Assembly (NCBI GenBank): GCA_028284865.1
Contig: JANQQV010000020.1
Span: forward strand, 310,001-374,000
Length of the DNA stretch: 64,000 nucleotides
Direction of reading: 5' to 3'
DNA from: Rhodothermales bacterium
GTDB lineage: Bacteria; Bacteroidota; Rhodothermia; Rhodothermales; UBA10348
Notes under the pieces: generated by a model
What the model was told of the DNA's origin: nothing
Database searches by the model: none
The model's input: only the letters and a program-made list of their open reading frames with translations
Shown here: one piece after another, positions 10,405-36,359 of the stretch
How positions within the stretch are numbered: position 1 is the stretch's first letter
How the letters are laid out: the number at the start of each line of letters is the position of its first letter
Program-made: the position numbers and the translations under genes

Positions 10405-10421
10405 CCTTTTCGTTTTCCCTG

Positions 10422-10450
10422 TTGACACGTCAATTACGATTGTTTACACT
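10422..10450 (+). promoter_or_regulatory. Candidate promoter of the FG-GAP protein gene
   Basis: TTGACA at 10422-10427 and TACACT at 10445-10450 are separated by exactly 17 bases, a strong sigma70-like arrangement about 95 bases upstream of the ATG at 10546. It is not the Bacteroidota -33/-7 form, so the assignment is tentative. It overlaps the 5' end of the divergent hydrolase gene if the GTG start of that gene is used. Confidence 0.35.
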
Positions 10451-10536
10451 GCTGTTTCAGTGTTTTCACGATCGGGGTGACGATTCCACCCGGCGTCACC
10501 AATATCCGATCTGAGAGATCAAATCACATCCTATTT

Positions 10537-10541
10537 GGAGG
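10537..10541 (+). promoter_or_regulatory. Ribosome binding site fixing the start of the FG-GAP gene
   Basis: GGAGG lies four bases before the ATG at 10546. This is notable because most genes in the window have no clear Shine-Dalgarno sequence, and it supports this ATG over the in-frame codon at 10477. Confidence 0.6.
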
Positions 10542-10545
10542 CCCC

Positions 10546-12411
10546 ATGCGCAGAGTTACAAGTCTTTTGATGTTAGCTGCTTTCGTGCTCGTCGGAAGCG
10601 CTTTCGGTCAGAGCACTGATTATTCGTGGACCGTCCCGCTTTCTGATGAAGCTGAGCGTCCCTATTCCGCTTTCCATTCCGGCACCCGTACCGTGATGGG
10701 TCCTTATGACCTGGACGGCGACGGCATGCAGGAAATCCTCGTTTCCGACTACACCGGCGGTACCCGCGTCCACGTTCTCGAAACCGTTGGTGCTGACACC
10801 TGGGAGCACGTCTATTCCACCCCATGGTTGGATGTCACAGGCAGCACGATCAACGGTCGCGCCATTGCCGGTGGCGACCTCGACGGTGATGGCCGAGGAG
10901 AGATCGTATTCTTCTCCGGAGACGGTTTCGCCGACGGCTCTCCGTTCCCATACGGCATGTACGTGTTCGAGCACACAGGAACGGACAACGACTACGGCAC
11001 GGAGCCAACTACGGTATACGAACTGCCCAATGCCCCGAATCGCTGGCGCATGGAGCAGATCGTTATCACTGATGTCGATAATGACGGCAAGCAGGAATTG
11101 ATGACCGGTAACAACGGTAACAACGACGGTGACAACTGGTGGATCATTTCTGTTGAAGGCGACATCGGATCCGGCTTTGAGACCTGGGTCCAGGAAGCCT
11201 ACCTCAACTCCCGCGTCCGGGATTGGGACCCTGTTGACCGCGGTGGCGGATCTCCTTACGGTATTGTAGCAGCTGACCTCGACGGCAATGGCATCAACGA
11301 GATCGTCATGAGCTCGTGGAACAGCCTCAACGTTGCCATCGGTCAGGCCACTGGCCCCAACGTGTACTTCTTCCCTGATGGCACCCAAGGCCCTCAGAAC
11401 CAGCAGCTGAGCGCCGGCGTCGGTGATCACGTTGCCTTCTTTGGTCTGGATGTTGTCGACATCAACGGTGATGGCGACGATGAAGTCTTCGGTTCCGTTC
11501 TCCAGACTGGCGACGTATTCGTGGTCAACTACGAGATCGGCGAAAGCACGACGCAGATCCTTCCGGAGAATGCGAAAGTTGCTGTTGTACCCGGCCTCTC
11601 CTCCCTCGGTCTTACCGCAGGTGACCTGGACGGCGACGGCAACATGGACCTCATCGGTACAGGCTCGTCATACACCGCCAACCAGTTCAACAACAACCTG
11701 GCTCCAAACTGGGTGAACATTGTAGAGTATGTCGGTGGTGCGAACAGCGATCCAGAGGATCCTGCCAACTACTCCGATCTCGTTCAGGTCTTCTTCCCCA
11801 ACGATCAGCTTGACGACTTCGATCGCGTGACGCGCGACTCCGCAGGTGTCATCACGGAGTACCGTGAAGATGGTCAGCAAGGCCCTCAGTTCGTCTCAAA
11901 GCTTGCCTTCCTGGGTGACATTGACGGTGACATGAATAATGAGGTTGCTCTCGGTATCCAGGGTGTTGATGATTCTCTGTACACATACACGGAAGTCTTC
12001 AACCCTGCCGACTCGACGTACACGCGTTCGCTCGTTTCCGTTGAGGCAGGTCCACAGCGCGTGTTCATGCGCGTTCTCTCGGCTGGTGCCTCAGGCATCA
12101 ACATTGAAGAGGATCGGATCATCATACCGACGGACTATGTCCTCGAGCAGAACTATCCGAACCCATTCAACCCGACGACGAACATCCGCTTCGAACTGCC
12201 TCGCGACAAAGCGGTCTCCTTGACCATCTTTGACGTTTCGGGACGTGTCGTCAAGCGACTGGTAGACAATCAGTACCTGTCACAAGGCGTACACGAGTTC
12301 CAGTGGGACGGAACCAGTGATGCAGGCGGCCAAGTGGCCAGCGGTACGTATCTGTATCAGCTGAAGTTTGGCAACTTCGCGCATACCAAGACCATGGTAT
12401 TGCTGAAGTAA
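10546..12411 (+). CDS. Secreted FG-GAP/VCBS-repeat protein with T9SS sorting domain
   Basis: The 621-residue product starts with a signal peptide ending at GSAFGQ. At least seven calcium-loop repeats follow (DLDGDGMQE, DLDGDGRGE, DVDNDGKQE, DLDGNGINE, DINGDGDDE, DLDGDGNMD, DIDGDMNNE), the pattern of an integrin-like beta-propeller. The C-terminus (LEQNYPNPFNPTTNIRF through MVLLK) is a textbook type-A T9SS sorting domain. The protein is therefore likely a calcium-stabilised surface adhesin or matrix protein; the ligand is unknown. It has a strong ribosome binding site and its own terminator, so it is probably monocistronic and well expressed. Confidence 0.9.
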   Translation: MRRVTSLLMLAAFVLVGSAFGQSTDYSWTVPLSDEAERPYSAFHSGTRTVMGPYDLDGDGMQEILVSDYTGGTRVHVLETVGADTWEHVYSTPWLDVTGSTINGRAIAGGDLDGDGRGEIVFFSGDGFADGSPFPYGMYVFEHTGTDNDYGTEPTTVYELPNAPNRWRMEQIVITDVDNDGKQELMTGNNGNNDGDNWWIISVEGDIGSGFETWVQEAYLNSRVRDWDPVDRGGGSPYGIVAADLDGNGINEIVMSSWNSLNVAIGQATGPNVYFFPDGTQGPQNQQLSAGVGDHVAFFGLDVVDINGDGDDEVFGSVLQTGDVFVVNYEIGESTTQILPENAKVAVVPGLSSLGLTAGDLDGDGNMDLIGTGSSYTANQFNNNLAPNWVNIVEYVGGANSDPEDPANYSDLVQVFFPNDQLDDFDRVTRDSAGVITEYREDGQQGPQFVSKLAFLGDIDGDMNNEVALGIQGVDDSLYTYTEVFNPADSTYTRSLVSVEAGPQRVFMRVLSAGASGINIEEDRIIIPTDYVLEQNYPNPFNPTTNIRFELPRDKAVSLTIFDVSGRVVKRLVDNQYLSQGVHEFQWDGTSDAGGQVASGTYLYQLKFGNFAHTKTMVLLK

Positions 12412-22040: not shown

Positions 22041-23144
22041 ATGGGCTCCCCTACCAAGCAGCCGAAAACATTGATAGCCGGCGGTGCCGGTTTTCTTGGC
22101 TCACATCTGTGTGACCGATTCCTTCGTGAAGGTCACCAGGTCACCTGTGTAGACAATCTTCTGACGGGCCGTCTGGAGAATGTCGATCATCTCCTGGGCA
22201 ATTCCGGGTTCACCTTCCTCCACCAGGACATCTCGACGTCCACGGATCTGGGTGATGACTATGACTACATCCTGAATTTCGCCTGCCCGGCCTCTCCGAT
22301 CGACTATCTCAAATACCCGATGGAGACCCTGGACGTGGGGTCATTCGGAATGAAGAACCTGCTGGACATTGCGATGCGCTCTGGTGCCCGCATCCTGCAG
22401 GCTTCCACCAGTGAAGTCTATGGCGATCCGCTGGTTCATCCGCAAAGTGAATCCTATTGGGGCCACGTCAATCCAATCGGTCCCCGTAGTGTGTACGATG
22501 AATCCAAGCGATTCGCTGAAGCGCTGATGGCATCTTATCACCGCGAGTTCGGTGTAGAGACCCGCATTGTGCGCATTTTCAACACCTACGGCCCGCGCAT
22601 GCGACTCGACGATGGGCGCGTGCTGCCCACCTTCATGAAACAGGCCCTCTCGGGCGAACCCATCTCCATTTTCGGTGATGGTTCACAGACGCGATCATTC
22701 TGCTATGTGGACGACCTGATTGAAGGTATCGTTCGGCTTCTGCACTCCGATGAGTCCGATCCGGTGAATGTCGGCAATCCTGACGAAGTCACCATCGGTC
22801 AATTTGCCGAAGAAATCGTCGCGTTGACAAACAGCGGAAGCACGATCAGCTATCACCCGCTTCCAAAGGACGATCCCAAAGTTCGCCAGCCTGACATCAC
22901 AAAAGCGAAGCGGGTCCTTGGCTGGTCACCTCAGATGAACCGGACGGAAGGACTCAAGGCAACCCTGGGCTATTTCGAAGAGGAAGTTGCAAAACTTGGG
23001 CTCACAAGCTCTCAGCCCGTCGTCCAGCACCGTCCTCTTGGTCGCATGGGCAATCGAGGAGCCATCCAGCGCCGTCGTCGGCAGAGTGATGCATTTCGTC
23101 ATCGCGCCTGGAAGAAAATCAAGATTACCGATCCACGCACATGA
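22041..23144 (+). CDS. UDP-glucuronate decarboxylase (UDP-xylose synthase), SDR family
   Basis: The enzyme converts UDP-glucuronate to UDP-xylose, a sugar donor for the polymer. Evidence: [13 protein letters not shown]-binding loop near the N-terminus, the family-specific [13 protein letters not shown] segment, STSEVYGD, and the catalytic pair Tyr152/Lys156 in YDESK preceded by [12 protein letters not shown]. The core is about 320 residues; this protein has 367, the extra being an arginine-rich tail (about 320-367) with no recognised domain. The stop overlaps the next start by four bases (ATGA), so translation is coupled to the copolymerase gene. No UDP-glucose dehydrogenase gene is present in the window to make the substrate. 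Confidence 0.88.
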
Positions 23145-25789
23145 ACTGGCCATCTCCACAGGACGAAGCTGGTAAGCGGACCGGGGCGCCTCAGAATCGC
23201 CCGTCCCGAACAACCGACCGTACGGATTCCGAACGGAAGCCTGCCGAGCGCCTGCCCAACAGGGCCGGGCGAAGGGGTGCAGGACGCCCTCCTGTGGACC
23301 CGGATTTCGAACGTTTTCTGACTTCTGCAGATTCATCGGGAACGCGATGGGCTTCGCCAACACCTTCGCCAGAAAAAGTGGAAGTGATCATTCCGGAAGA
23401 AGTCGAGGAGTATGAGCTCCCGACCTGGAAACGAATCGGTGAGGCCAGTCCGGATCGGGCCGCCCACCCGCATCCAAATCGGACGCAACAGGCGGCCGAT
23501 CAGCAGATCGTGCACATGCCGCATCCGCAGCCGCTGTTCCCGGGAGCAGGGGCGAGTGTGGAACGGGATGCAACCAATACCGAAAAGCATGTCCGATTCC
23601 TTTTCCGCCGATTCCCGTTGTTTCTGTTGGTCGCCATCGTCATATGGTCCATGGTGGCCATTTATCTGGCTGCTGTCCCTTCTACCTACCAGTCCGAGAC
23701 GACCCTGCTGATTGATATTGATGCATTCGAAAGCGAATTGGACGATCTGCCTCGTTTGAGCGCAGCAGGAGCCGGGTTTGGCAGCGGTAAGCTGGCCAAC
23801 CAGGTTCTCATTCTTCAGTCATCTCCTGAGTTGAGTCAGGGTGTGGCAACCGAGCTTGCCAGACTACGCTCGGAGTCTTCCGAACTGGCCAACTGGACCA
23901 TTTTCGATCGCCTGACTTCCTACTCGCGGGAAGGCGGATCGCTGGCCACCCTCCTGCTCGATGAGTACATCTCCGTGCAAGGTCGCTCAAGCGATGAGGA
24001 CGAGCCGGATGCCATTTCGATCGCGGCCACGAGTACGGATCCGGCTGAAGCCGCGCTGATCGCCAACATTTTTGGACAGAACTACGTGGACAAGGTCGAC
24101 CGTCTGGTCACTGATCAATTCACGGAAGCTCTGGGATTCTATCGCGATCGTCACGCCATCCAGCAGGCCCGCGTGGACGAGGTCTCCGATGACATCAAGA
24201 ATTTCATCCGTCAGGAAGGCGGATTTGCCTCTGAAGCGGATGCCGATCACATCCTTCAACAGATCGCGGCCCTCAACTCTTCGCTCGACGGCACAGCGAT
24301 CGATATCGAAGAGTTGAAGGCATCCATCGCCTCCCTGGAACAGGAAGTGGAATTGATGGACGGACAGCTGGTTGCAGAGCGTGCCGCGCACGGAATCGAA
24401 GACCAGCTGGACCAGACCTATGAGCGTATTGCCGAGCTCAACCTTGAGGTGGAGAAGTTCTACGTCAAGAATCCCGAGTTGCGCGCGGATCCCAGCCCCA
24501 GCAAGGACCTGACAGACATGGTCAACGAACGCACTGTTCTGTTGGCACAAGTAGACTCGCTGTCCCAGCTGTATTCCTCGGAAATCACGGCGGTAGGCGG
24601 CGTGGACCTGCGCTCGTACGACGGCGGAATCTCCTACATGGCATCGCTGCGTCGCGATCTCATCAAGAACCGGGTTCTGCTCAACGCAGCTGAGGCCAAA
24701 CAGCAGGCAACACTTGTTCGCCTTGCAGACTACGAGCGCATGCGGCGTACCCTGCCTGAGCGTGCGGTCGAATATCGCGAGCTGACGACACGCCATGAGC
24801 GTGCCATCAGAGAGGTCGACGATCTCGACGAGAAGATCCAGAAGATCGAAGAGGCTGCTGACGGACGTCGTGCCTTCGTTCGCATCCTCCATCCCGCTGT
24901 TGAGGCCACCAGTCCGAAGGTGCCTCCGATGATGATCGGGATCCTCGGGACGATCCTGGGCCTCCTGGCGGGTATCGGAGCCGCATTCACGGCTGAGAAG
25001 GCTGACCGCCGACTCTATGAGAAGTCTGACATCGAGCAGTTTGACGCAGAAGTGATTGCTTCCATCCCTCGTTTCCGTGGTGTCTCCCGCAAGCAGAAGG
25101 CATCGTTCTACGAGCGTACCATTTCGACAGAACTGCTGACCATTCTGCATCCGGAGTCACCGGTCTCGCGCTCTTTGCGCTCCATCCCGCTCCGCATCGC
25201 TGGCGATACGCTCAATCAAAGCGTGTTCGTCTTCACCGGTGTTGATCCGAAGGCTGGCACGAGTTTCCTGGCTGTGAACACGGCTGCTGCCCTTGCCCGC
25301 TCCGGTGCCCGTGTATTGCTGGTTGACGCACGACTGGTTAATCCCTCGGTCATTCCGATGCTCGGTCTCAGCGATCAAGCCCGATTTGATATGGCATCGA
25401 ACTCGTTTGCAGCCGGAAAGGGAATCGAAGCCTTTTCGGGTCGCATGCCGAACCTGTACGCCATGTCGCTTGAAGCTCCCAAAGGAGAGAATCCTGAATT
25501 CCTCCTGAGCTCTCACCTTGGTACGTTCATTCAGCGCGTCAAGAAGCAGTTTGATGCGGTCGTCATTGATGCTCCTCCGCTTTCGAATTCCACGGCCGCT
25601 CTGGGGCTATCGCGACTGGCCGATGAAATGGTGGTGACCGTCAAAGCCGGAATGACCCATGCCAATCGACTGGCCGATGCCATCGAAGACATCCGCAGTA
25701 CATCAGGGACCCACGCAAAAGTGGTTCTCAATGGCTCCGGAGCCAAGAAGGTTCGCTCTGGCGCAACGAGGGCAACAAGCCATGCTTGA
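23141..25789 (+). CDS. Wzz/GumC-like polysaccharide copolymerase with degenerate BY-kinase-like ATPase domain
   Basis: An 882-residue inner-membrane protein that should set polymer length. It has an unusual disordered, proline/arginine-rich N-terminus of about 150 residues, then TM1 (about 155-180), a periplasmic coiled-coil Wzz region, TM2 near 610-630 ([19 protein letters not shown]), and a Wzc/CapB-like cytoplasmic domain. In that domain the Walker A reads GVDPKAGTS (700-708), so the lysine of GK[ST] is Thr707. The A' motif reads VDARL instead of DxD. Walker B VIDAPP (Asp810) is intact. There is no C-terminal tyrosine cluster. ATPase and tyrosine-kinase activity are therefore doubtful. No outer-membrane export (OPX) gene is seen nearby. 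Confidence 0.88.
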
Positions 25790-25819: not shown

Positions 25820-27151
25820 GTGAAAACACGCATTCGTCATATCGCCCGTCGCATCGGAGGCGCCGCCCGTCACGCAGGGAGCGGCGCTTTCGTGGATCAA
25901 GGGATCATCAGTGGACTGAACTTTCTGACATTCCTGATTCTGGCCCGCTGGCTGGTTACGGAGGCCTTCGGCGCCTACGTCCTGGCATTCTCAGCGCTCA
26001 TGTTTTTTCAGACATTCCAGCATGCGCTGGTGACCCGCGCACACAATGTGCTTGGTGCTCGAAAAGAGGGCGCGACATACGACGCATTTACCCGTACGGC
26101 TCTGTTGTTGGTGACGGGCGGCGCAGCAAGTCTGGCGCTGTTGCTCGGAGCCACTTCGGGAGCGTTTGCTCTCCTCGGTCTCGATGCCTGGGCGGGAGCA
26201 ACTGCCGGGCTCGCGGTCGCGGTCCTGCCCTGGCTCGTACAGGATGCCATGCGCCGATTGTTGTACACGGCGGAGCGCATCAAGGCGGCGACGGTGAATG
26301 ATGCCGTCTCCTATCTGCTTCAATTCGGGGCCATCCTTGCACTCTTTCAACTGGATGTCTCGAGCAGCGTATTTCTCGTCTTCAGCGTACTGGGAGCTTC
26401 GTCCTTGGCCGCCTGTCTGGTTGGATGGTTCCAACTGAGGGACGTTCTCGCACAGCCTACGGATCGATCGTCATTCGTAGAAGACACCAAAGCCGTCTGG
26501 CACTATGGCAAGTGGCTGTCGTCTGGCGAATTGGTAGGATGGATTGGCCAGAATGGAAATACCTGGTTGATTGGTGGGTTGTTGGGTGCGCCATTGGTAG
26601 CAGGCTACCGTGCGGCTTCTTACGTGACCAACCTGCTGAATCCGTTCGACCTCGCGGTCTCCAACTATCTGCCCGTACGGGCCTCACGTGTTCGTGAATC
26701 GGAAGGACAGTCCGGCATGAACCGGTGGCTGTTTCGTCAGGGCTTGATGCTGTGTGTTCCGTACGCCCTTCTAGCTGTCGCGATCACCGTGTTCGCCGGA
26801 GATCTGCTTAGACTCTTCTACGACGCCCGGTATGCTACCGACTTACTGGCACTCGTGTTGGCCGTAACGGTCTGGGCTCGATTTTTTGGTTTCGTGGTGA
26901 ACTTCGCTCGATTGGGCTTGATGGCTTCCGAACGGAATCTGCCCATCTTCGTCTCGCAGATCATGGGGCTCGTCGTGTTTGCGGTCGTCTCCACGATCCT
27001 GATTTCGTCCATCGGCATTGTCGGTGCACCTCTTGGACGCATTGTCCTGCATATCATTGTTGGTGTCTACCTCGCGCAACGCCTGATATCGACGTCTCGT
27101 GACAAGGCTGTCAAGCCAGCTTTCTGGAAGCCATCGGAGGTCTCGTCATGA
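25820..27151 (+). CDS. Polysaccharide flippase (Wzx/MATE-like)
   Basis: A 443-residue polytopic protein starting at a GTG 30 bases after the copolymerase gene. Roughly 12 hydrophobic segments are visible, with the early motif FVDQGIISGLNFLTFLILAR typical of the polysaccharide-synthase (PST/MOP) flippases, and later pairs of helices near the C-terminus (FVSQIMGLVVFAVVSTILI). It should move lipid-linked repeat units across the inner membrane. Its last codons overlap the next gene by four bases. Its position between the copolymerase and glycosyltransferases supports the Wzx role; specificity cannot be read. Confidence 0.85.
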   Translation: MKTRIRHIARRIGGAARHAGSGAFVDQGIISGLNFLTFLILARWLVTEAFGAYVLAFSALMFFQTFQHALVTRAHNVLGARKEGATYDAFTRTALLLVTGGAASLALLLGATSGAFALLGLDAWAGATAGLAVAVLPWLVQDAMRRLLYTAERIKAATVNDAVSYLLQFGAILALFQLDVSSSVFLVFSVLGASSLAACLVGWFQLRDVLAQPTDRSSFVEDTKAVWHYGKWLSSGELVGWIGQNGNTWLIGGLLGAPLVAGYRAASYVTNLLNPFDLAVSNYLPVRASRVRESEGQSGMNRWLFRQGLMLCVPYALLAVAITVFAGDLLRLFYDARYATDLLALVLAVTVWARFFGFVVNFARLGLMASERNLPIFVSQIMGLVVFAVVSTILISSIGIVGAPLGRIVLHIIVGVYLAQRLISTSRDKAVKPAFWKPSEVSS

Positions 27152-29178
27152 CCCGGATTCCGGAAACATCGGCTTCCTCGCCTGCTTCGACAATGCGGGT
27201 GCTAGGAAAAGGATCGGAGGCGACGGTTTACCTCGATGCGCGTGCGAACCGTGCTGTCAAGCAGTTTGACCGTGCACCCATCGCTATCGCCCGGAGCAAG
27301 GCACGTTCGGAGTTTGCGCGCCTGCAGCGCGCACACAACCTGACGCACTCGAGCCGTAGTGTAAACGTGCCAGCTCCGGGTACATTGAATGAGCCTGCTG
27401 CATCATTCTCCATGGGTATTGTTCATGGCCCGTCGTTGCTGACCCAACTACTGGGTGGCTCCATTGCCGACGAGCTCATGCGCACACTCGCCGCCTTCAC
27501 AGCCGAAGGATTCCAGCTCTTCCGTGAGATCCTGTCCGACTTCACGCTGGATCACCTTTTTCCAATCGGGAATGAGCGGATCACGTTTGTCGACTTCGGA
27601 AACGGATCTGCAAGCGAAGAGGGACTGACGCCTGAAGGCACACGAGCGACGTTCATTGAGGCGGCAGGTGCCACGCTGTACGAATGCACACGCCCTGCAC
27701 GGTTCTTCAATCGATCCGGCATGGAACGTTGTGCCGATTTCCTGGCCTACGTCGCTGTAGAGTTAGGAATCAATTGGGACCAAGCTCTCCAGCATGCCAT
27801 TGACGCGCGATTCAATGAGCGAGGTAAGGGTGGTTCTGCGACCCGCATCGCTTGGTATGCATTTGCGGGACGAATCAACCGAAAGCGGTTCTTTTCCCGA
27901 TTGAGTCAGACCATCGAACTGAACACCTTGACTAAAGGGGTCTCGGTCGACTCGGCCAGTATTGCAGATTCCGAATCTGCAGAGGTGACTTCCTCACGCG
28001 CCGAAACCGAGTCGATCGCTATAGCTGATTCAGTCGCAACAACCGATTCAGGCGCACTAACCGAAATCATCTCTTTTGTCTGGGACTTCCCAGAAGAAGA
28101 CGGTGCGTTCACCAACGGCATTCACAAAGTTGTGGACGGCATGATGGCGGCCATGGTGCGCCAAGGCACATCCGCCACTGTACTTGCTCTCGGATCCCAG
28201 CCCTCTACGCATACCAGAAAGGGCTATCGCGTCGAGCATCTACGTGCTGGCCGCATCCCTCCCATCCAGACTATCAGGCAGCGCATTCAGCGTGCTGGAC
28301 CAGGCGCAGTGACGTTTTTCCACGGCACCTTCAACCCCAGGTATACGCTGCTCGCTCGTGCATTGCGCCGTCATCAACTTCCGTATGTGGTCGTGCCGCA
28401 CACGTTGATGGACGATGGCTTTTTCTCAGTCAGTCGTCTGAAGAAGGCGATTTACTGGAAGGCGTTTGAACGGAAATTCCTGGACCAGGCTTCCTGTATC
28501 TGCTCCTACGATTTGGGTCAGAAGAAGAACCTGGCGTCTCGAGGTGTGCATGCTCCCATGATCGAGTCCTGGAACGGCATCTGTGATCCGGTCGTCCCGA
28601 AAACGGATCGCTATTCCACAGAAGGGTCCGTGCGATTCCACTTTTTCGGTCGTATCGCGACAGGCACCAAGGGACTGGACATGTTGCTGGACGCAACGGC
28701 TAGAGTTTCAAAGACCAAGGACATTGAGGTCATCATCCAAGGCCCAGGTACTGAAGATCTCGACGACCTGAAGCAGTGCGCTTCTGATCTCGGTATTGCA
28801 CAGGTGGTCCGTTTTGAACCGCCAGCCTCTTCGCCGAATCCCATCCTCATCATGGCGGAATATGATGTCAGCATCCTGTCGTCCCGCTACGAAGGATTCC
28901 CCACGGCGTTGGTCGAGGCCATGATGGCCGGACGACCCATCGTGACAACGAGAGTCGGCACCCTGGCTCCCGTCCTTGAGCGTGAAGGAATCGCAGAAGT
29001 GGTCGATACCACCAGTGAGTCCATCGCTCAGGGCATGCTGAACGTGATCAAAGCGCGCAGCCAGTGGCCTGAAATCGGCCTGAACGGCCGGCAGTGGGCG
29101 ATGAATCACTTGCAATGGGACCCGATCGTTCAGCGGCTACTTGCCGATCTGAACGCGTGTCTCAATCGTCCGTCATGA
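27148..29178 (+). CDS. Kinase-like domain fused to GT4 glycosyltransferase
   Basis: One 676-residue chain with two unrelated domains. Residues about 16-245 look like a protein/sugar-kinase fold: glycine-rich GKGSEATVY (20-28), VKQ lysine (Lys38), a possible alpha-C Glu55, and VDFGNG with Asp149 as the DFG metal residue. The catalytic loop reads SDFTLD (131-136) in place of the GDxxxxN of kinases, so His136 replaces the Asn. A Ser/Ala/Asp/Thr-rich linker (about 265-305) leads to a GT4 glycosyltransferase with E-x7-E in EGFPTALVE (582-590). The C-terminal part should transfer a sugar to the lipid-linked repeat unit. The N-terminal part may phosphorylate a sugar such as Kdo or heptose, or regulate the enzyme; both are inference. 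Confidence 0.8.
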   Translation: MTRIPETSASSPASTMRVLGKGSEATVYLDARANRAVKQFDRAPIAIARSKARSEFARLQRAHNLTHSSRSVNVPAPGTLNEPAASFSMGIVHGPSLLTQLLGGSIADELMRTLAAFTAEGFQLFREILSDFTLDHLFPIGNERITFVDFGNGSASEEGLTPEGTRATFIEAAGATLYECTRPARFFNRSGMERCADFLAYVAVELGINWDQALQHAIDARFNERGKGGSATRIAWYAFAGRINRKRFFSRLSQTIELNTLTKGVSVDSASIADSESAEVTSSRAETESIAIADSVATTDSGALTEIISFVWDFPEEDGAFTNGIHKVVDGMMAAMVRQGTSATVLALGSQPSTHTRKGYRVEHLRAGRIPPIQTIRQRIQRAGPGAVTFFHGTFNPRYTLLARALRRHQLPYVVVPHTLMDDGFFSVSRLKKAIYWKAFERKFLDQASCICSYDLGQKKNLASRGVHAPMIESWNGICDPVVPKTDRYSTEGSVRFHFFGRIATGTKGLDMLLDATARVSKTKDIEVIIQGPGTEDLDDLKQCASDLGIAQVVRFEPPASSPNPILIMAEYDVSILSSRYEGFPTALVEAMMAGRPIVTTRVGTLAPVLEREGIAEVVDTTSESIAQGMLNVIKARSQWPEIGLNGRQWAMNHLQWDPIVQRLLADLNACLNRPS

Positions 29179-29188
29179 ACGATGAATC

Positions 29189-30703
29189 GTGAGCATCACA
29201 ACAGCACATAGCGTCCCCTCGTCAACGAATTCCGGCGTTGCGCAGCGAATGAATAAGTCCGCGACCACTTCGCGCATTCTATTGGTCGCCTACGCGTGTA
29301 GTCCGGGGCGCGGTTCGGAGGAATCTGTTGGATGGGATACGGCAGAAGCATTGTGCGGACTTGGGCATGAAGTTACTGTTCTCACGAGAACGGCTGAGAG
29401 GAACGCGTGCCCATCTCCATCAGAACGACATCCATCGCTATCCATCGTCTGTCACGACAATCCTTCCTCGTGGCAGAGGCGCTTTGACGGAATCGGTAAG
29501 CTTGGTGTTGAGTTCGGCTACATGATGTGGCTGCGCTCTGCACGGCGCGTCGTAATTGATCTGCAGACCCGAATCGGGTTCGATTCTGCGCAGCACGTCA
29601 CGTACGCCCGCTACTGGATGCCATCGCCCCTCCAGGTTCTGGATATCCCCTGGATATTGGGCCCCGTAGGCGGTGGCGAATCCATCCCTCCTTCTCTGCG
29701 CAAGACCCTCAGTCGGGCCGGGCGTGTTTTCGAAGGCGTACGTGACATCATGCGATATGTCGGCGAAGCCTCACCTGCTGTTCGCCTGGCTGCTCGAAGC
29801 GCCTCTGTTTGCCTGGCGAACACCTCTGAAACTGAAGAACGGTTGCGGTACCTGGGAGCCCGTCGCACAGAAATCATCAACTCTGCTGCTCTTGCAGACA
29901 CAGAGTTTGCTCGACTTGCGTCCGGCGACGCTTCTGATGCTGCTCCGTCGCCCCGCAGAGGGTTTGTAAGTGTAGGCCGGCTGCTGGACTGGAAAGGATT
30001 CCATCTGGGGCTGGAAGCATTTGCGGCATCCGGATTGGCCGGCAGCGAGATCTACACCATCATTGGAACGGGCCCTTTCGAAGCTCAACTTCGTGCCAAG
30101 GCCAACGAACTTGGAATTACTGGATCGGTCGAATTCACAGGCATGCTGCCCCGTCAGGAAGTATTCCGACGGATAGCCCAGGCACGTGCGCTCATTCATC
30201 CGAGTTTGCATGAATCGGGCGGATTCGTGTGTCTTGAGGCCATGGCTTCTGGTACGCCTGTGGTCTGTATCGATACTGGTGGACCGGGACTGTTCGTCCT
30301 TCCAGAATGCGGTTATCCCGTGCCTGCATCTAGCCCCGCAGTGACCGTCGAGGCGCTTGCCGAAGCAATGCAAAGTGCGGCTCTCGATTCGTCTGACTTC
30401 ACATCGAAGAGTGTGTACGGCAAGGAGCACGTACAAAAGCATCACATCATGAGCGTGAAGGCGAACAGACTGGACGCGCTGCACAGGGATATACAGCGAG
30501 GCGATATTCGGCAACGCGATATGCTGCATCGTGATATGTTGCAAAGCGATAAACAGAATCGGGAGACGAACGAGCGCGGTTTGCAGACGCATTTATCGCC
30601 ATTGGCGCTGGTCGACCGGGATCCGCTGAACGCGACATTGCCTTCTCCTCGCGCGACTGCGCTGGATTCCGTGCATGGTATCGCTGAGGATCACAAGTCG
30701 TGA
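29189..30703 (+). CDS. GT4 glycosyltransferase with repeat-encoded C-terminal tail
   Basis: A 504-residue protein from a GTG at 29189; a later ATG at 29249 begins just before the Rossmann strand RILLVAYACSPGRGSE and is a credible alternative. GSEESVGWD, LGPVGGGE, VGRLLDWKGF and ESGGFVCLE (E342 and E350) are GT4 landmarks, so it is a retaining GT-B transferase using a nucleotide sugar. The catalytic part ends near residue 410. The last 90 or so residues are hydrophilic and contain five copies of a D-(I/M/K)-x-x-(R/G/S) pentapeptide encoded by 15-base repeats. The stop overlaps the next gene. Confidence 0.85.
   Translation: MSITTAHSVPSSTNSGVAQRMNKSATTSRILLVAYACSPGRGSEESVGWDTAEALCGLGHEVTVLTRTAERNACPSPSERHPSLSIVCHDNPSSWQRRFDGIGKLGVEFGYMMWLRSARRVVIDLQTRIGFDSAQHVTYARYWMPSPLQVLDIPWILGPVGGGESIPPSLRKTLSRAGRVFEGVRDIMRYVGEASPAVRLAARSASVCLANTSETEERLRYLGARRTEIINSAALADTEFARLASGDASDAAPSPRRGFVSVGRLLDWKGFHLGLEAFAASGLAGSEIYTIIGTGPFEAQLRAKANELGITGSVEFTGMLPRQEVFRRIAQARALIHPSLHESGGFVCLEAMASGTPVVCIDTGGPGLFVLPECGYPVPASSPAVTVEALAEAMQSAALDSSDFTSKSVYGKEHVQKHHIMSVKANRLDALHRDIQRGDIRQRDMLHRDMLQSDKQNRETNERGLQTHLSPLALVDRDPLNATLPSPRATALDSVHGIAEDHKS
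30488..30562 (+). repeat. Five 15-base in-frame tandem repeats in the GT4 tail
   Basis: Units start GATAT (last one GATAA) and encode DIQRG, DIRQR, DMLHR, DMLQS and DKQNR. The period is exactly 15 bases, so gain or loss of units keeps the frame. This suggests slippage expansion in a non-catalytic tail. Confidence 0.85.
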
Positions 30704-32310
30704 TGCGCAGCGCAGCGACAACATATCATGACGCTTCGGAAGCGATAGGTACGTCTGGATCCAAATCCGGTCGAGCGACGCGGACGCATTCCATGCCTTC
30801 TCAGCCGTGGACACCGGATCCCGCCATGATGAGGAAAGGCTTGGACGGTCTTTCGCCTCTTTTTCGTCTGTTCGCACGGAGTCTCGCATTCATCCTGCTT
30901 GGTTATGGGGTGATCGGGCGCGGATTCGCTTACCTCGGATTCAACCCGCTGTTTGTTGGTGAGATGGTCCTCGGGCTGGGCCTGATCGCGATGATGTCAT
31001 CACGACACATGGGAGCAGCCTTGAAAACGTGGACCGGGCGCTGGTTGCTGATCTTCATCGGCTGGAGCGCCCTCATGACGCTTCCCTACCTCCCGATATA
31101 CGGCATGATGGCTCTCAGGGACGGCGTTCTCTGGGGCTATGCCTTGTTTGGGTTGATCGTGGCCTCCGTAGTCATGGCAGCTCCACAGATCATGCGCTGG
31201 ATGCTGGTCAGATATCGCCTATTCGCGCTCGCCTTCCTGTGCACCGCCTGGGCCATGTGGACGATTTCTTCCATGGAACTACTCACGTGGATCAAGGCAC
31301 CTGGCTCGGATGTCGGATTTTTCAATATCAAGGGCGGAGACCAGCTGGTTCATCTGGCCGCGATCGCGGCATTCGTGTCTGTCGGCATGAGCCGTCACCG
31401 GATCCTGATGCTTGCCGGTATCCTCTTCAATTTTGCCTTCCTGCTCACGTCGAAGCGTGCCGGAATGGTAGCCTTCGCGTTGGCATTCGGATTCCTCGTC
31501 TTGATGAATCCGCCAAAGCTGAAACTCAGTGGCATCGTCTATGCCGGTATCCTGGGTGTCACGCTGCTCTTGCTCATCAACCCCAAGATCGATCTCGGGG
31601 GTGACAGGGAGATCTCCGTCGAGCAGATGACGGACAATGTAGTCAGCACGTTCGACCGCTCGGGAACGTCTACTCTCGATGATACCAAGTCCTGGCGCCT
31701 GGATTGGTGGACCAAAATCGTCCAGTATTCGCTCACGCCGCGCTACGTCTTCACGGGTAAAGGCTACGGCATCAACCTGGCCACCGATGATGGTTTTCAG
31801 GTTCGTGAGGACGATTCCCTGCGCAGCCCGCACAATGCCCATTTGAACATCATGGCGCGATCCGGAATTCCCGGATTTCTCCTGTGGGTCATGGTCCATG
31901 CGTCCTGGTTCTTTGCCATGCTCGGAGGTGCTCGCAGCGCCAAGAAACAGGGCTTTGTCAACTGGCATGGCATTTTCTGTTTCCTGATCTGCTACTGGAT
32001 TGCACTCATGGCCAACGCCTCGTTCGACGTCTTTCTGGAAGGACCGATGGGAGGCGTCTGGCTGTGGTCCGTCATGGGCTTCGGCATTGCGGCCCGTTAC
32101 CATTTTGATCGCAATCCAGAGTGGGCCATGGACGCCATCGCGATTCCTGGTGGCTCCGGAATGACTATGACGTCATCTGGTAACGAGAATTCATTGAACG
32201 ACCTGTCCGCCCGCCCCGAGAGCCGCCGTTTCCGCAATGGCAGTCCATCTGTGAGTCGCTCCGATTCGCAGCGGCCGCCCGTTCGCCACTACACGGACCT
32301 TCGTCGATGA
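30700..32310 (+). CDS. O-antigen polymerase/ligase-like membrane protein (Wzy)
   Basis: A 536-residue polytopic protein starting GTG ATG and overlapping the previous stop by four bases. After a 45-residue hydrophilic N-terminus there are about 10-11 membrane segments. The Wzy_C-type periplasmic loop is marked by TSKRAGMVAF and, near residue 385, SPHNAHLNIMARSGIPGFLL, the HN-x-HLNxxxxxGIPG signature of polymerases and WaaL ligases. In this position it most likely polymerises the repeat units flipped by the upstream Wzx. A soluble tail of about 65 residues ends the protein and overlaps the next gene by four bases. Confidence 0.85.
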   Translation: MMRSAATTYHDASEAIGTSGSKSGRATRTHSMPSQPWTPDPAMMRKGLDGLSPLFRLFARSLAFILLGYGVIGRGFAYLGFNPLFVGEMVLGLGLIAMMSSRHMGAALKTWTGRWLLIFIGWSALMTLPYLPIYGMMALRDGVLWGYALFGLIVASVVMAAPQIMRWMLVRYRLFALAFLCTAWAMWTISSMELLTWIKAPGSDVGFFNIKGGDQLVHLAAIAAFVSVGMSRHRILMLAGILFNFAFLLTSKRAGMVAFALAFGFLVLMNPPKLKLSGIVYAGILGVTLLLLINPKIDLGGDREISVEQMTDNVVSTFDRSGTSTLDDTKSWRLDWWTKIVQYSLTPRYVFTGKGYGINLATDDGFQVREDDSLRSPHNAHLNIMARSGIPGFLLWVMVHASWFFAMLGGARSAKKQGFVNWHGIFCFLICYWIALMANASFDVFLEGPMGGVWLWSVMGFGIAARYHFDRNPEWAMDAIAIPGGSGMTMTSSGNENSLNDLSARPESRRFRNGSPSVSRSDSQRPPVRHYTDLRR

Positions 32311-34643
32311 GTATGCCCCATCGACATATACTTGGCATGCGTGTGGACTCGGGCAACTATGACACGATGTCGACCCGCATATGTGGCTGGGCCGAAAAGG
32401 CCGAGAACCGGTATGTCTGTGTCTCGAATGTGCACATGACGATGGAAACGGTCGATTCCGAAGCGTTCAGGGATGTTGTGAATGGGGCGGACATGGTGAC
32501 CTCGGATGGGATGCCGTTGGTCTGGATGCTCCGAAAGCTCGGACTGCCAGAATCCGAACGGGTTTACGGACCAGAGCTCGTTCTCCACGTCTGCGAACGT
32601 GCAGAGAATGCAGGCATCCCGATCGGTTTGTACGGCGGTACAGACGAGAGTCTGGCTCGATTCACGGCATTTCTGGCTGAAAAGTATCCCGACTTGAAGG
32701 TCGCCTACCAGTGGGCCCCTCCTTTCAGGCCGCTGACCGATGAAGAAGACGTAGCGATGGTCAACGAACTTGCGGAAAGTGGGGCTCGCATCCTGTTAGT
32801 GGGCATCGGATGTCCAAAGCAAGAGCGATTCATGGCGGCGCACAAGGATAGCATTCAGGCGGTCCAGCTCGGCGTCGGTGCAGCGTTCGATTTCCACAGC
32901 GGTGCCGTCAAACAGGCCCCAGAGTGGATGGGGCGTTCCGGTCTCGAATGGCTGTTCCGCCTGGCAATGGAGCCCAAGCGTCTGTGGCGACGCTATGTCA
33001 TCCACAACCCGCGATTCATGGTTCGAGCTGCTTGGCAACTCGCCACCCAACGACAAAAAGCCGTTTCCGCTGTCGTCGGAGCGCTGGTTGTAGCCTTCGG
33101 TTTGTTGCTGAGTGGCTTCCATCAAAGCGACGATCATCACAGCGGAATCCATCAGAGCAACGATCATCACGACGGGATCCGTTACAGCGACGACTATCGG
33201 AGCGAAGTCCGCTCGGGCGAATTGGCCTTCGAGACCTTCTTTGTCGATCAGGCGCATCCCGACGCTTCCGACAGCAATCCGGGTACCTCAACGCTGCCGT
33301 TTCGAACGATCTCAGCGGCTCTGGCGGCCGATGGAATCAGTGCTGGGGATACCGTGCTCGTTGGAGGCGGGATATACAGGGAAAGGCTCAATCCCCAGGT
33401 CGGTGGAGATGGGCGGCATGCTCGCCTCGTCATTCAAGCCAGAAAGGGCGACGAAGTAATCGTTACTGGTGCAGACCCGATCGGATACCCGGAACACCTC
33501 TCAGGCACCACCTGGGTAGTCAACAACTACGTCCCGCTGGACTACTTCGGTGACGACTACGTGTACCAGCGTGAGTTGGTCGTGGCCGATGGTGAAACCC
33601 TGAAGCCGGTATTTGCCCAAGCAGACTTGGTAGCGGGTACGTTTTTCGTAGACCGGTATTCTGCCACGTCAGGACGCATCCTGATCGATTCGGGTTCAAC
33701 CGAAGCGCCTTCGCTTGAGGTCGCGCGACGCGGGGCCTTGTTCTTTCCGGGCAATCGGTACGCGAACTGCGGCGATCCAGAGCAGCCATCAGCTTTTCAT
33801 CTTATCGGTCTGACCTTCCGTCACGCCGCAAACGCGGCTCAGTATGGAGCCGTTTGCGTTGGTGGCCGGGACTCCTTACTCGAGCACGTCACCGTTGAGT
33901 GGACCATCGGAACGGGAATCCAGGTCATCGGATCGGGACATCGCCTCTGGAATGTCACGTCCAATAATCACGGTCAAACAGGCATCAACGGGAGATGCAC
34001 GGGATGTGCGTTGGTCGATACCGAAACGTCATTCAACAATTTCGTGGGGCATGATGTCTTTTGGGAAGCTGGTGGAGGCAAATGGGCCTATTCGACCGAT
34101 GTTCAGTTCCTGCGACACACGTCCATCGGCAATGACGGTCCTGGTCTGTGGTTTGACGGCGACAATGTCCGCATGACGGTCTCGTACAGCCTATTCGACA
34201 ATAACCTTGCAGCAGGCGTCTTCATCGAACTCGATTCGCATGACGTCCTTGTGGAGCGTGTGACGATCAAAAATACCCGGCGACTGGGCTGGACTGGAGC
34301 GGGCGTTCTCATTCAGGCGACCGGGGGCGCGACTCTTCGCGACAATCTGCTGGAAGGCAATGAAGGCGCCGGCATCTGGATGCGCCGTGATGACCGATCG
34401 GAGCCTGGATTCAACACAGTGACAGGAAACGTCTTCAGCGGGAATGCGACGGTTCCCGATCAGGACCGTGCCGATCTCCAGATTGATGCTGAGACGCAGA
34501 TTGAGCTCTGCAGCAATCAACTGGTCGACAACCAATTCATGGAGAGCGCCCATTTTCGATTCACAGTCGACACCAATGGCGACACGTTCAAAGGCAACGA
34601 CCTGGATCACTTCAAGTGCCTGGTTGACTATTCGGGTCGTTGA
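32307..34643 (+). CDS. WecG/TagA/CpsF (GT26) glycosyltransferase fused through a TM segment to a parallel beta-helix domain
   Basis: Residues 1 to about 245 are a GT26 transferase: SNVHMTMETVDS, TSDGMPLVWM, GIGCPKQE (166-173) and FDFHSG are family signatures; such enzymes add N-acetylmannosaminuronate or similar sugars to undecaprenyl-PP-linked acceptors in the cytoplasm. A single membrane helix (about 252-271) follows a positively charged stretch, so the rest should be periplasmic. Next is a His/Asp-rich linker of three 10-residue repeats (270-299), then a DUF1565-like start (DASDSNPGTSTLPFRTISAA) and a right-handed beta-helix with many NN/GN turn motifs, as in polysaccharide lyases and AlgG-type epimerases. 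No lyase or epimerase active site is certain. I know of no standard family with this architecture. Confidence 0.85.
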   Translation: MSMPHRHILGMRVDSGNYDTMSTRICGWAEKAENRYVCVSNVHMTMETVDSEAFRDVVNGADMVTSDGMPLVWMLRKLGLPESERVYGPELVLHVCERAENAGIPIGLYGGTDESLARFTAFLAEKYPDLKVAYQWAPPFRPLTDEEDVAMVNELAESGARILLVGIGCPKQERFMAAHKDSIQAVQLGVGAAFDFHSGAVKQAPEWMGRSGLEWLFRLAMEPKRLWRRYVIHNPRFMVRAAWQLATQRQKAVSAVVGALVVAFGLLLSGFHQSDDHHSGIHQSNDHHDGIRYSDDYRSEVRSGELAFETFFVDQAHPDASDSNPGTSTLPFRTISAALAADGISAGDTVLVGGGIYRERLNPQVGGDGRHARLVIQARKGDEVIVTGADPIGYPEHLSGTTWVVNNYVPLDYFGDDYVYQRELVVADGETLKPVFAQADLVAGTFFVDRYSATSGRILIDSGSTEAPSLEVARRGALFFPGNRYANCGDPEQPSAFHLIGLTFRHAANAAQYGAVCVGGRDSLLEHVTVEWTIGTGIQVIGSGHRLWNVTSNNHGQTGINGRCTGCALVDTETSFNNFVGHDVFWEAGGGKWAYSTDVQFLRHTSIGNDGPGLWFDGDNVRMTVSYSLFDNNLAAGVFIELDSHDVLVERVTIKNTRRLGWTGAGVLIQATGGATLRDNLLEGNEGAGIWMRRDDRSEPGFNTVTGNVFSGNATVPDQDRADLQIDAETQIELCSNQLVDNQFMESAHFRFTVDTNGDTFKGNDLDHFKCLVDYSGR
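33114..33203 (+). repeat. Three 30-base in-frame repeats encoding a His/Asp-rich linker
   Basis: Units read GFHQSDDHHS, GIHQSNDHHD and GIRYSDDYRS, immediately after the membrane segment of the GT26-beta-helix fusion. Clustered His and Asp could bind metal ions in the periplasm; this is inference. Confidence 0.8.
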
Positions 34644-34811: not shown

Positions 34812-36359
34812 GTGCCTGAGCAATCTGACAATCCCATGCAATTGGTTGGCAACCGTCCGGCATCCCGAATCCGTGGAACGGACTGCCTCATGGAGAACAT
34901 GGAAATCTCCGACCATATGGTCGGGGAAACTGTGCTCGCCCATGAAACACGTGGCCATTACGTGTCCGCCCGCGCGTTCGAAACGCGTCGGATCTACAAT
35001 GCGATTGCGTTGATGCTCGGCGACATGCTCGCCTTGACCGGTGTGCTGTACCTGACAGGCGTTCTCAGGAGCGCCGTGGTGGGTCAACCGCTGTTCCAGT
35101 GGTGGATCGAACTCGTTCTTCCCGTCTGGATTATCGGTGCCCTTGGCGGCAAGCTGTATCCAGGCTGGGGACTTGGCGCTGTCGAGGAATTGCGTCGTCA
35201 AACGCTAACTCTGGTGGGCGTCTTCTCGTTTGCTGCGGTCCTGCTTTTCTGGTTCCAAATGGGCGAGGAAACCAGTCGATTCGCCTTGACGGTGGCCTTT
35301 TTGCTCTCCCTGGTCGCCGTTCCAGCCATGCGAAGGGTCGTGAAAACCCTTCTGATCAAAGCCGGTCTCTATGGACTGCCGGTGGTGATCTATGGCGCTT
35401 CCAAACTGGGACGCGAACTGGTCGATCATCTTGAGGATGAAAAAGGACTGGGGTATAAGCCCATCGCCTTCCTTGACGATCATCCCTCCTATTGGGGTGC
35501 GCGATTGCGTGGAGTCCCAGTACTGGGTGACACGAATCTGGTCCTGCCAGAAGCCCAAGTGGCCATTCTCGCCATGCCCAATGTTGAACCCGAATTCAGA
35601 CAGCACCTGCTTGAAGGACCACTCTCCTACTACCGCAGCGTCATCATCATTCCCGACATCTCTGAGCTGCCTTCTCTCTGGGTAGGCACGATAGATCTCG
35701 GTGGGACGCTTGGGTTGAAGCTGAGTATGAATCTGGCCGACCCGATTTCACGCTTCGTGAAGCGGTCGTTTGATCTGGCTGCCTCGTTATTGGCTGGGCC
35801 GCTCTGGCTCCCCATGGTAGGCTTTTTTGCAGCACTGATCTGGCTGGAAGATCGCAAGAACCCCTTCTTCGTCCAGAAACGGGTCGGGAGTAATGGCGAC
35901 GAGTTCGGTACCTGGAAATTCAGAACCATGGTGCCCGATGCCGAAGCCACGCTTCAGCAGGCTCTCGAAAACGACGCGGAATTGAAGGCCGAATGGGAGC
36001 GCGATTTCAAGCTGAAGAACGACCCGCGCATCACACGCATCGGAAGATTCCTGCGCAAGTTCTCCATCGATGAGATTCCGCAGCTGTTCAATGTGGTTTC
36101 AGGAACGATGTCGCTCGTCGGCCCGCGCCCACTGCCGGCTTATCACGAGGAAGAACTCAATGATCGCGTGCTTTCCATGCGTCGTCGCGTACGGCCCGGA
36201 ATGACGGGCCTCTGGCAGGTTTCTGGGCGCTCTGATGCAGGGACGGACGGCATGGAGCAGTTTGACTCGTATTACGTGCGCAACTGGTCCCTGTGGCTGG
36301 ACATCGTCATTCTGGTCCGCACGTTCCGCGCTGTCTCGCGATCTGCAGGGGCTTACTAG
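34812..36359 (+). CDS. Polyprenyl-phosphate sugar-1-phosphate transferase (WbaP family), initiating enzyme
   Basis: A 515-residue protein from a GTG. Four or five N-terminal membrane segments, a central nucleotide-binding-like domain (VVIYGASKLGRELVDHL) and the C-terminal catalytic domain give the full-length WbaP/PglC layout. The catalytic part (from about 315) has KRSFDLAASL, PFFVQKRVGSNG, WKFRTM, DPRITRIGRFLRKFSIDEIP and GPRPLPAYH. The enzyme transfers a hexose-1-phosphate, often Gal or Glc, from a UDP-sugar to undecaprenyl phosphate and so starts each repeat unit. It is the last gene of the cluster and is separated from the rest by 168 bases, so it may have its own promoter. Confidence 0.92.
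   Translation: MPEQSDNPMQLVGNRPASRIRGTDCLMENMEISDHMVGETVLAHETRGHYVSARAFETRRIYNAIALMLGDMLALTGVLYLTGVLRSAVVGQPLFQWWIELVLPVWIIGALGGKLYPGWGLGAVEELRRQTLTLVGVFSFAAVLLFWFQMGEETSRFALTVAFLLSLVAVPAMRRVVKTLLIKAGLYGLPVVIYGASKLGRELVDHLEDEKGLGYKPIAFLDDHPSYWGARLRGVPVLGDTNLVLPEAQVAILAMPNVEPEFRQHLLEGPLSYYRSVIIIPDISELPSLWVGTIDLGGTLGLKLSMNLADPISRFVKRSFDLAASLLAGPLWLPMVGFFAALIWLEDRKNPFFVQKRVGSNGDEFGTWKFRTMVPDAEATLQQALENDAELKAEWERDFKLKNDPRITRIGRFLRKFSIDEIPQLFNVVSGTMSLVGPRPLPAYHEEELNDRVLSMRRRVRPGMTGLWQVSGRSDAGTDGMEQFDSYYVRNWSLWLDIVILVRTFRAVSRSAGAY

Follow-up and report, generated by a model that had tools for sequence, protein, structure and literature searches.

A kinase-fold domain fused to a GT4 glycosyltransferase in a Rhodothermales polysaccharide cluster, with relatives on Wzx-type flippases

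The locus and its product

We analyzed a 64,000-nucleotide stretch of a Rhodothermales bacterium (contig JANQQV010000020.1, positions 310,001 to 374,000; hereafter the window), in which an open reading frame on the + strand, at 27148-29178, lies within a tightly packed polysaccharide cluster. It is a single open frame of 676 amino acids, and the opposite strand carries many stops. The initial annotation had proposed a kinase-fold domain fused to a GT4 glycosyltransferase through a low-complexity linker, and all three parts were recovered:

27148..27915, + strand: protein-kinase-like domain, residues 1-256 (translation, profile match to kinases in the PDB, AlphaFold2 model, structure match)
27922..28056, + strand: Ser/Ala/Thr-rich linker, residues 259-303 (composition; length differs in orthologues)
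28063..29175, + strand: GT4 glycosyltransferase domain, residues ~306-676 (Pfam, EX7E motif)

The GT4 part was matched by Pfam (Glyco_trans_1_4, 4e-21; Glyco_trans_4_4, 3.4e-11) and carries the EX7E motif of a GT-B donor domain, EGFPTALVE, at residue 582; no methyltransferase domain was found by Pfam in the protein. The linker (45 residues) is 71% S/T/A/D/E, against 34% in the rest of the protein, and is particular to the window protein, because the distance from DFG to NGIHK is 174 residues there vs. 145 and 127 in two orthologues. The N-terminal domain has the Gly-rich loop G20-K-G-S-E-A-T-V-Y28, K38 in AVKQF, E55, the catalytic loop S130-D131-F-T-L-D-H136, and D149-F-G151; the Gly-rich loop, the VK lysine, the SDFTLDH loop, and DFG thus all lie at the residues first reported.

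Evidence for the kinase fold

A profile of eight kinase domains of the family described below (A1) matched 325 distinct PDB sequences at E <= 1, the best 60 of these 325 being all kinases, and the best match (KEOPS Bud32, 8k20_B, 1.5e-6) was aligned over the Gly loop, the Lys, the catalytic Asp, and the DFG Asp. The profile from the three kinase-GT4 domains alone gave a best PDB match of 3.7e-6. AlphaFold2 models, built with three sequences, reached a predicted local distance difference test score (pLDDT) of 69 and a predicted template modeling score (pTM) of 0.70 for the window domain, and 76 and 0.75 for that of a second kinase-GT4 protein, L055, with the other four models less confident in each case (pLDDT 49-57 and 52-63, respectively). 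The top VIA-align match was PRPK for both models (window: 7szc_C, Z = 14.2, root-mean-square deviation (rmsd) 3.4, 181 residues aligned; L055: Z = 15.0, rmsd 3.3, 185 aligned), at 12-16% identity in these alignments; APH(2''), B-Raf, and JAK2 followed at Z ~12.5-13.5, within ~1 to 2 Z of PRPK. Foldseek's own ranking placed Hanks-type kinases first, with large rmsd. The Gly loop, beta3 Lys, helix-C Glu, catalytic Asp, metal ligand, and DFG Asp of the protein-kinase-like fold are all present in order. The structure comparison proposed earlier as a check therefore returned a kinase fold, with PRPK/Bud32 on top, and we regard the predicted fold of the N-terminal domain as firm, and its subfamily as not. 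WaaP and MviN structures were absent among the best 50 structure matches listed per search, which excludes nothing. A phmmer search with the window domain gave a single weak match, to the arabinosyltransferase AftB (E = 0.0018), absent among the profile matches listed.

The nearest structures, PRPK/Bud32 and Hanks-type kinases, would suit a protein kinase targeting proteins of the cluster, e.g., Wzx, Wzc, or the GT4 itself, and the family profile also picks up, at up to ~1e-10, longer proteins from the class that seem to be Hanks-type kinases. However, the model has ~13 residues from DFG to the next helix, which leaves little room for an activation segment, and the HRD His and Arg are both absent. 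Among the 10 family members, Pfam found APH in four (best 3.3e-7) and Pkinase, more weakly, in three (best 8.4e-5), besides ABC1 in two and RIO in one. Fusion to enzymes handling lipid-linked sugar would likewise favor a glycan substrate, and we consider a protein kinase unlikely.

The catalytic site

The initial annotation had suggested that Lys38, Asp131, and Asp149 be compared among homologues, and they do not vary at random: K38 and D149, like G22, are identical in all 10 members, and D131 is kept in eight, including all three kinase-GT4 proteins. In these three proteins, which are 32-46% identical, G22, K38, E55, D131, H136, and D149 are all identical; the three domains agree in 65 of 246 alignment columns, so that conservation of all six catalytic positions by chance has P = 3e-4. 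Motifs conserved at such identities, and the retention of the domain in four architectures and eight genomes with a matching flippase, argue against a decayed domain that is a passive passenger on the glycosyltransferase; the low identity among members and the non-canonical motifs could be read that way, and we hold it to be very improbable.

Five positions after the catalytic Asp, the three kinase-GT4 proteins carry His; the other seven members have Asn there, the standalone ones keeping the loop HDFAPVN. PKA has D166, N171, and D184 at these places, i.e., a spacing of +5/+18, as given in the source (PMC1821047); D131-x4-H136, counted without gaps, has the same spacing, and the catalytic Asp and the DFG Asp are 18 residues apart in the kinase-GT4 proteins and 19 in other members. 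A MAFFT alignment (A4) interrupted the catalytic loop with a gap of one residue, which would set D135 opposite the Asn; we take the ungapped register to be more likely than the gapped one, although this is not proved. In WaaP, H168 (D163+5) binds the second Mg where PKA has N171, and the mutants H168A, D163A, K51A, and D188N fail to support growth (PMC6147952).

Because the D-x4-H spacing is normal and WaaP, an active lipopolysaccharide (LPS) kinase, uses His at this place, the altered loop is probably no sign of death, and we rejected the reading of SDFTLDH as the mark of a dead kinase. The window protein has lost none of the catalytic Asp, the Lys, and the DFG Asp, the residues whose loss would define a pseudokinase, and it appears to keep every ATP and metal ligand, in a form for which WaaP offers an active precedent. 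The catalytic Asp is lost only in L015 and L018, the two Wzx-kinase-GT4 triple fusions, and with the helix-C Glu lost there as well, these look like pseudokinases. The earlier alternative of a sugar kinase or a pseudokinase therefore divides: the window protein leans toward an active kinase with a WaaP-like Asn-to-His change, and a pseudokinase is favored only for these two relatives.

Distribution and architectures of the family

The window N-terminal domain, searched in 60 relative genomes, had matches in eight, its own genome counted; weak matches in G045 and G046 (L020 and L021) were dropped from the family, as L020 is by eye a Hanks-type kinase and L021 (E = 0.0012), also by eye, RNA methyltransferase-like. 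Of all 244 genomes of the class, over which the A1 profile was run, 43 matched at E <= 1e-5 and eight had strong family matches at E <= 1.1e-18 (G000, G008, G011, G014, G015, G017, G019, and G022). Weaker matches, which start at ~1e-10, were left out of the family; they are Hanks-type kinase-like, judged from length and partial coverage and not individually checked. All eight genomes belong to the window's own taxonomic family, where they make up 8 of 27 genomes, and among 394 genomes drawn across the phylum the five matching at 1e-12 or better are all of that family too. A contig scan with the three-sequence alignment recovered two loci, L055 (= L014) and L056 (= L013), and no new ones. In a plasmid tblastn search with the window protein, the rows listed (20 of 127 records) covered only query residues from 296 on, i.e., the GT4 part. 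The kinase domain is a small lineage-restricted family, seen only in the window's taxonomic family.

The 10 members have four architectures: kinase-GT4 in three (the window protein, L014/L055, and L013/L056), Wzx-kinase, with the domain at the Wzx C-terminus, in three (L019, L052, and L053), Wzx-kinase-GT4 in two (L015 and L018), and the domain standing alone in two (L016 and L017). The initial annotation was right about the GT4 partner and had missed that the same domain is fused in relatives to the Wzx flippase, the adjacent gene in the window. A tree of the 10 domains recovered the kinase-GT4 proteins (100/99), the triple fusions (100/100), and the standalone members (98/95) as clades, with deep branches unresolved. 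The Wzx subfamily, at 1e-8, occurs in 8 of the 27 family genomes, the same eight that carry the kinase domain; the chance of such co-occurrence is 4.5e-7 if genomes are independent, which they are not.

This distribution bears on a regulatory role, in which a nucleotide- or substrate-binding kinase-like module would couple or gate GT4 and Wzx with no glycan phosphorylation, as is proposed for the pseudokinase domain of mycobacterial MurJ (MviN), acting via FhaA. The domain sits on a MOP-type flippase in 5 of the 10 members (three Wzx-kinase, two Wzx-kinase-GT4), and the triple fusions lose the equivalents of D131 and E55 while keeping those of K38 and D149, which points to a role there needing no catalysis. 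In the flippase MviN, the intracellular pseudokinase domain is described as non-essential, and a regulatory function has been proposed for it (PMC6180346). Against this, the kinase-GT4 proteins retain every one of the six catalytic residues, the standalone members keep their loop intact, and in G022 the degenerate triple fusion L018 (1440-4949) shares a cluster with the intact standalone L017 (8216-9058, at the cluster head), ~12 kb away, as though a catalytic copy were still required. In G019, where the second triple fusion occurs, only one family member was seen, and the 10.8-kb contig, from a fragmented assembly, does not allow the same judgment. For the window protein, we regard a purely regulatory domain as the main alternative to a glycan kinase, though a less likely one.

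Several relatives have further features. A second Wzx of the same subfamily (L072, 7720-9030, G014:C30) has no family kinase domain in the 18 kb examined; after it come genes for a GT2-like protein and for sugar dehydratase/dehydrogenase functions (names partly by eye). The standalone L016 (8655-9542), also in G022, had no polysaccharide-cluster gene matches in the 18 kb around it. At L019, a relative of the window GT4 (8894-11395) has a different N-terminal extension of ~450 residues with the P-loop GPDGVGKTT (Pfam AAA, 0.0014, under the cut-off), the kinase domain of the same genome being on Wzx. In several relatives the kinase domain ends in a hydrophobic helix (residues 657-675 of the L019 Wzx-kinase; L016 and L017 by eye), perhaps for membrane association, unlike the C-terminal helix of the window domain, which is Arg/Lys-rich.

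Gene neighborhood

The genes around the window protein, at 27148-29178, are as follows:

22041..23144, + strand: NAD-dependent sugar epimerase/dehydratase family protein (Pfam Epimerase, 1.1e-50), which we take to be UDP-glucuronate decarboxylase-like
23141..25789, + strand: Wzc-type polysaccharide co-polymerase with BY-kinase-like domain (Pfam AAA_31 over its cut-off; more specific Pfam and NCBIfam models score under theirs)
25820..27151, + strand: Wzx-type flippase (Polysacc_synt; Pfam, 1e-10)
29189..30703, + strand: second GT4 glycosyltransferase (Pfam)
30700..32310, + strand: Wzy-type polymerase/O-antigen ligase family protein (Pfam Wzy_C, 4.4e-15)
32307..34643, + strand: WecG/TagA glycosyltransferase fused to a right-handed beta-helix (Pfam)
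34812..36359, + strand: WbaP-type initiating sugar-phosphate transferase (NCBIfam TIGR03022, 5.7e-129, over its cut-off)

The stop codon of Wzx overlaps the start codon of the kinase-GT4 gene by four bases (ATGA, 27148-27151), and this overlap is present at all three kinase-GT4 loci. L013 shares the window gene order over 10 genes (amidase, epimerase, Wzc, Wzx, kinase-GT4, GT4, Wzy, WecG/beta-helix, WbaP, and desaturase), and L053 keeps most of it with the kinase domain on Wzx instead; no relative of the window GT4 was found in the 20 kb around L053. By eye, a hydrophobic segment and a repeat rich in His, Asp, and Ser connect the WecG-type part to the beta-helix, both in the window (32307-34643) and in L013 (3053-5320); L053 instead has its beta-helix on a GT4, and in L015 and L017 the beta-helix is a separate protein.

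Comparison with known systems

WaaP and other Kdo-type LPS core kinases (PF06293) share with the window protein a kinase-like fold, there acting on a lipid-linked saccharide, and a D-x4-H loop with His for Asn (PMC6147952); the His metal ligand of PF06293 type at the catalytic Asp+5 is found as H136 in all three kinase-GT4 proteins. The window protein differs in its fusion to GT4, in having no HRD histidine, and in the DFG Asp, at +18 vs. +25 in WaaP. A search of its own genome with PF06293 did not place the window locus among the five places listed, and we rejected membership of PF06293 by sequence, no member being matched by its profile.

A second comparison is with Klebsiella pneumoniae O7 ORF6, which combines methyltransferase, APH-like kinase, and glycosyltransferase (GT) modules in one chain and phosphorylates the glycan end, its D441A mutant leaving a glycan mimic unphosphorylated (PMC11231755), and with WbdD, an Escherichia coli O-antigen terminator reported to phosphorylate the terminal mannose (PMC3482155). 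In each, the glycan kinase domain shares its chain with further modules for glycan assembly, among them the GT modules of ORF6; both belong, however, to ABC-transporter pathways and carry a methyltransferase and a coiled coil, whereas the window protein has a GT4 domain and lies in a Wzx/Wzy-type cluster.

Mycobacterial MurJ/MviN resembles the relatives L015, L018, L019, L052, and L053 in linking a MOP-type flippase to a kinase-fold domain, a likeness of architecture; the window domain is on a GT4 and not on a flippase, and its catalytic residues are kept. PRPK/Bud32 and APH give the best structural and profile matches, and GxGSEA resembles the Bud32 QGAEA, but their partners and setting are others and the D-x4-H loop is a feature of the window group. 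No description of this kinase-domain family was found in the literature searched on kinase-glycosyltransferase or Wzx/flippase-kinase fusions.

Proposed function

In Wzx/Wzy pathways, GT4 enzymes act on the lipid-linked unit while it is on the cytoplasmic side of the membrane. From the fold, motifs, fusion, gene order, and start-stop overlap observed in the window system, we infer ATP use, catalysis, a glycan substrate, and an order of steps, and propose, at about even chances, that the window protein is an ATP-dependent glycan kinase-GT4 whose substrate is the lipid-linked repeat unit, after glycosyl transfer and before flipping. As a bifunctional enzyme of a Wzx/Wzy-type pathway, it would use its C-terminal GT4 to attach a sugar to the repeat unit on the cytoplasmic side. 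Its N-terminal domain, a small phosphotransferase of protein-kinase-like fold whose D-x4-H loop is of WaaP type, would then use ATP to phosphorylate the unit, or the acceptor sugar in it, and the product would go on to the flippase Wzx, whose gene lies upstream and is translationally coupled. With a kinase domain that is joined to GT4 in some proteins, to Wzx in others, and to the two together in a third group, the simplest reading is that it acts on what passes between these partners, and the swapping of partners suggests that the sugar unit may be phosphorylated, or checked, just before membrane transfer.

Several observations weigh against a glycan kinase. Conservation is incomplete: D131 is T in L015 and G in L018, E55 of helix C is kept in eight members and is Y in these same two, and G20 is kept in seven, with E, D, and T in L015, L052, and L053, respectively. 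The HRD histidine is L129 in the window protein and Q in two orthologues, and the corresponding WaaP mutant, H161A, does not support growth according to the same report (PMC6147952). The PF06293 profile matched none of the 10 members at E up to 10 with HMMER filters on, Pfam matched no family to the window kinase domain alone, seeing only the GT4 half, and the top structural neighbor, PRPK/Bud32, is not a sugar kinase.

For the family as a whole, we put forward, as doubtful rather than likely, a lineage-restricted kinase-like module standing between glycosyl transfer and flipping, which would move among GT4, Wzx, both, and a free state, would provide a phosphorylation step or a checkpoint before the flip, and would have turned from enzyme to pseudokinase regulator when fused to both. 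In the two triple fusions, catalysis would probably be lost and a binding or scaffolding role kept, and the degenerate fusion and intact standalone copy in the one cluster of G022 fit a division of labor.

Kinase modules joined to glycosyltransferases are already known from O7 ORF6 (PMC11231755). The kinase-GT4 finding is sound, and more interesting as a family than as a single protein; an Asn-to-His change in the catalytic loop is not to be read as a pseudokinase by rule. How a cell judges a lipid-linked repeat unit to be complete before Wzx flips it is, to our knowledge, poorly understood, and one kinase-like domain carried on a late-acting enzyme, on the flippase, or on both is a natural set of constructs with which to test phosphorylation vs. 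kinase-fold sensing at the flip step.

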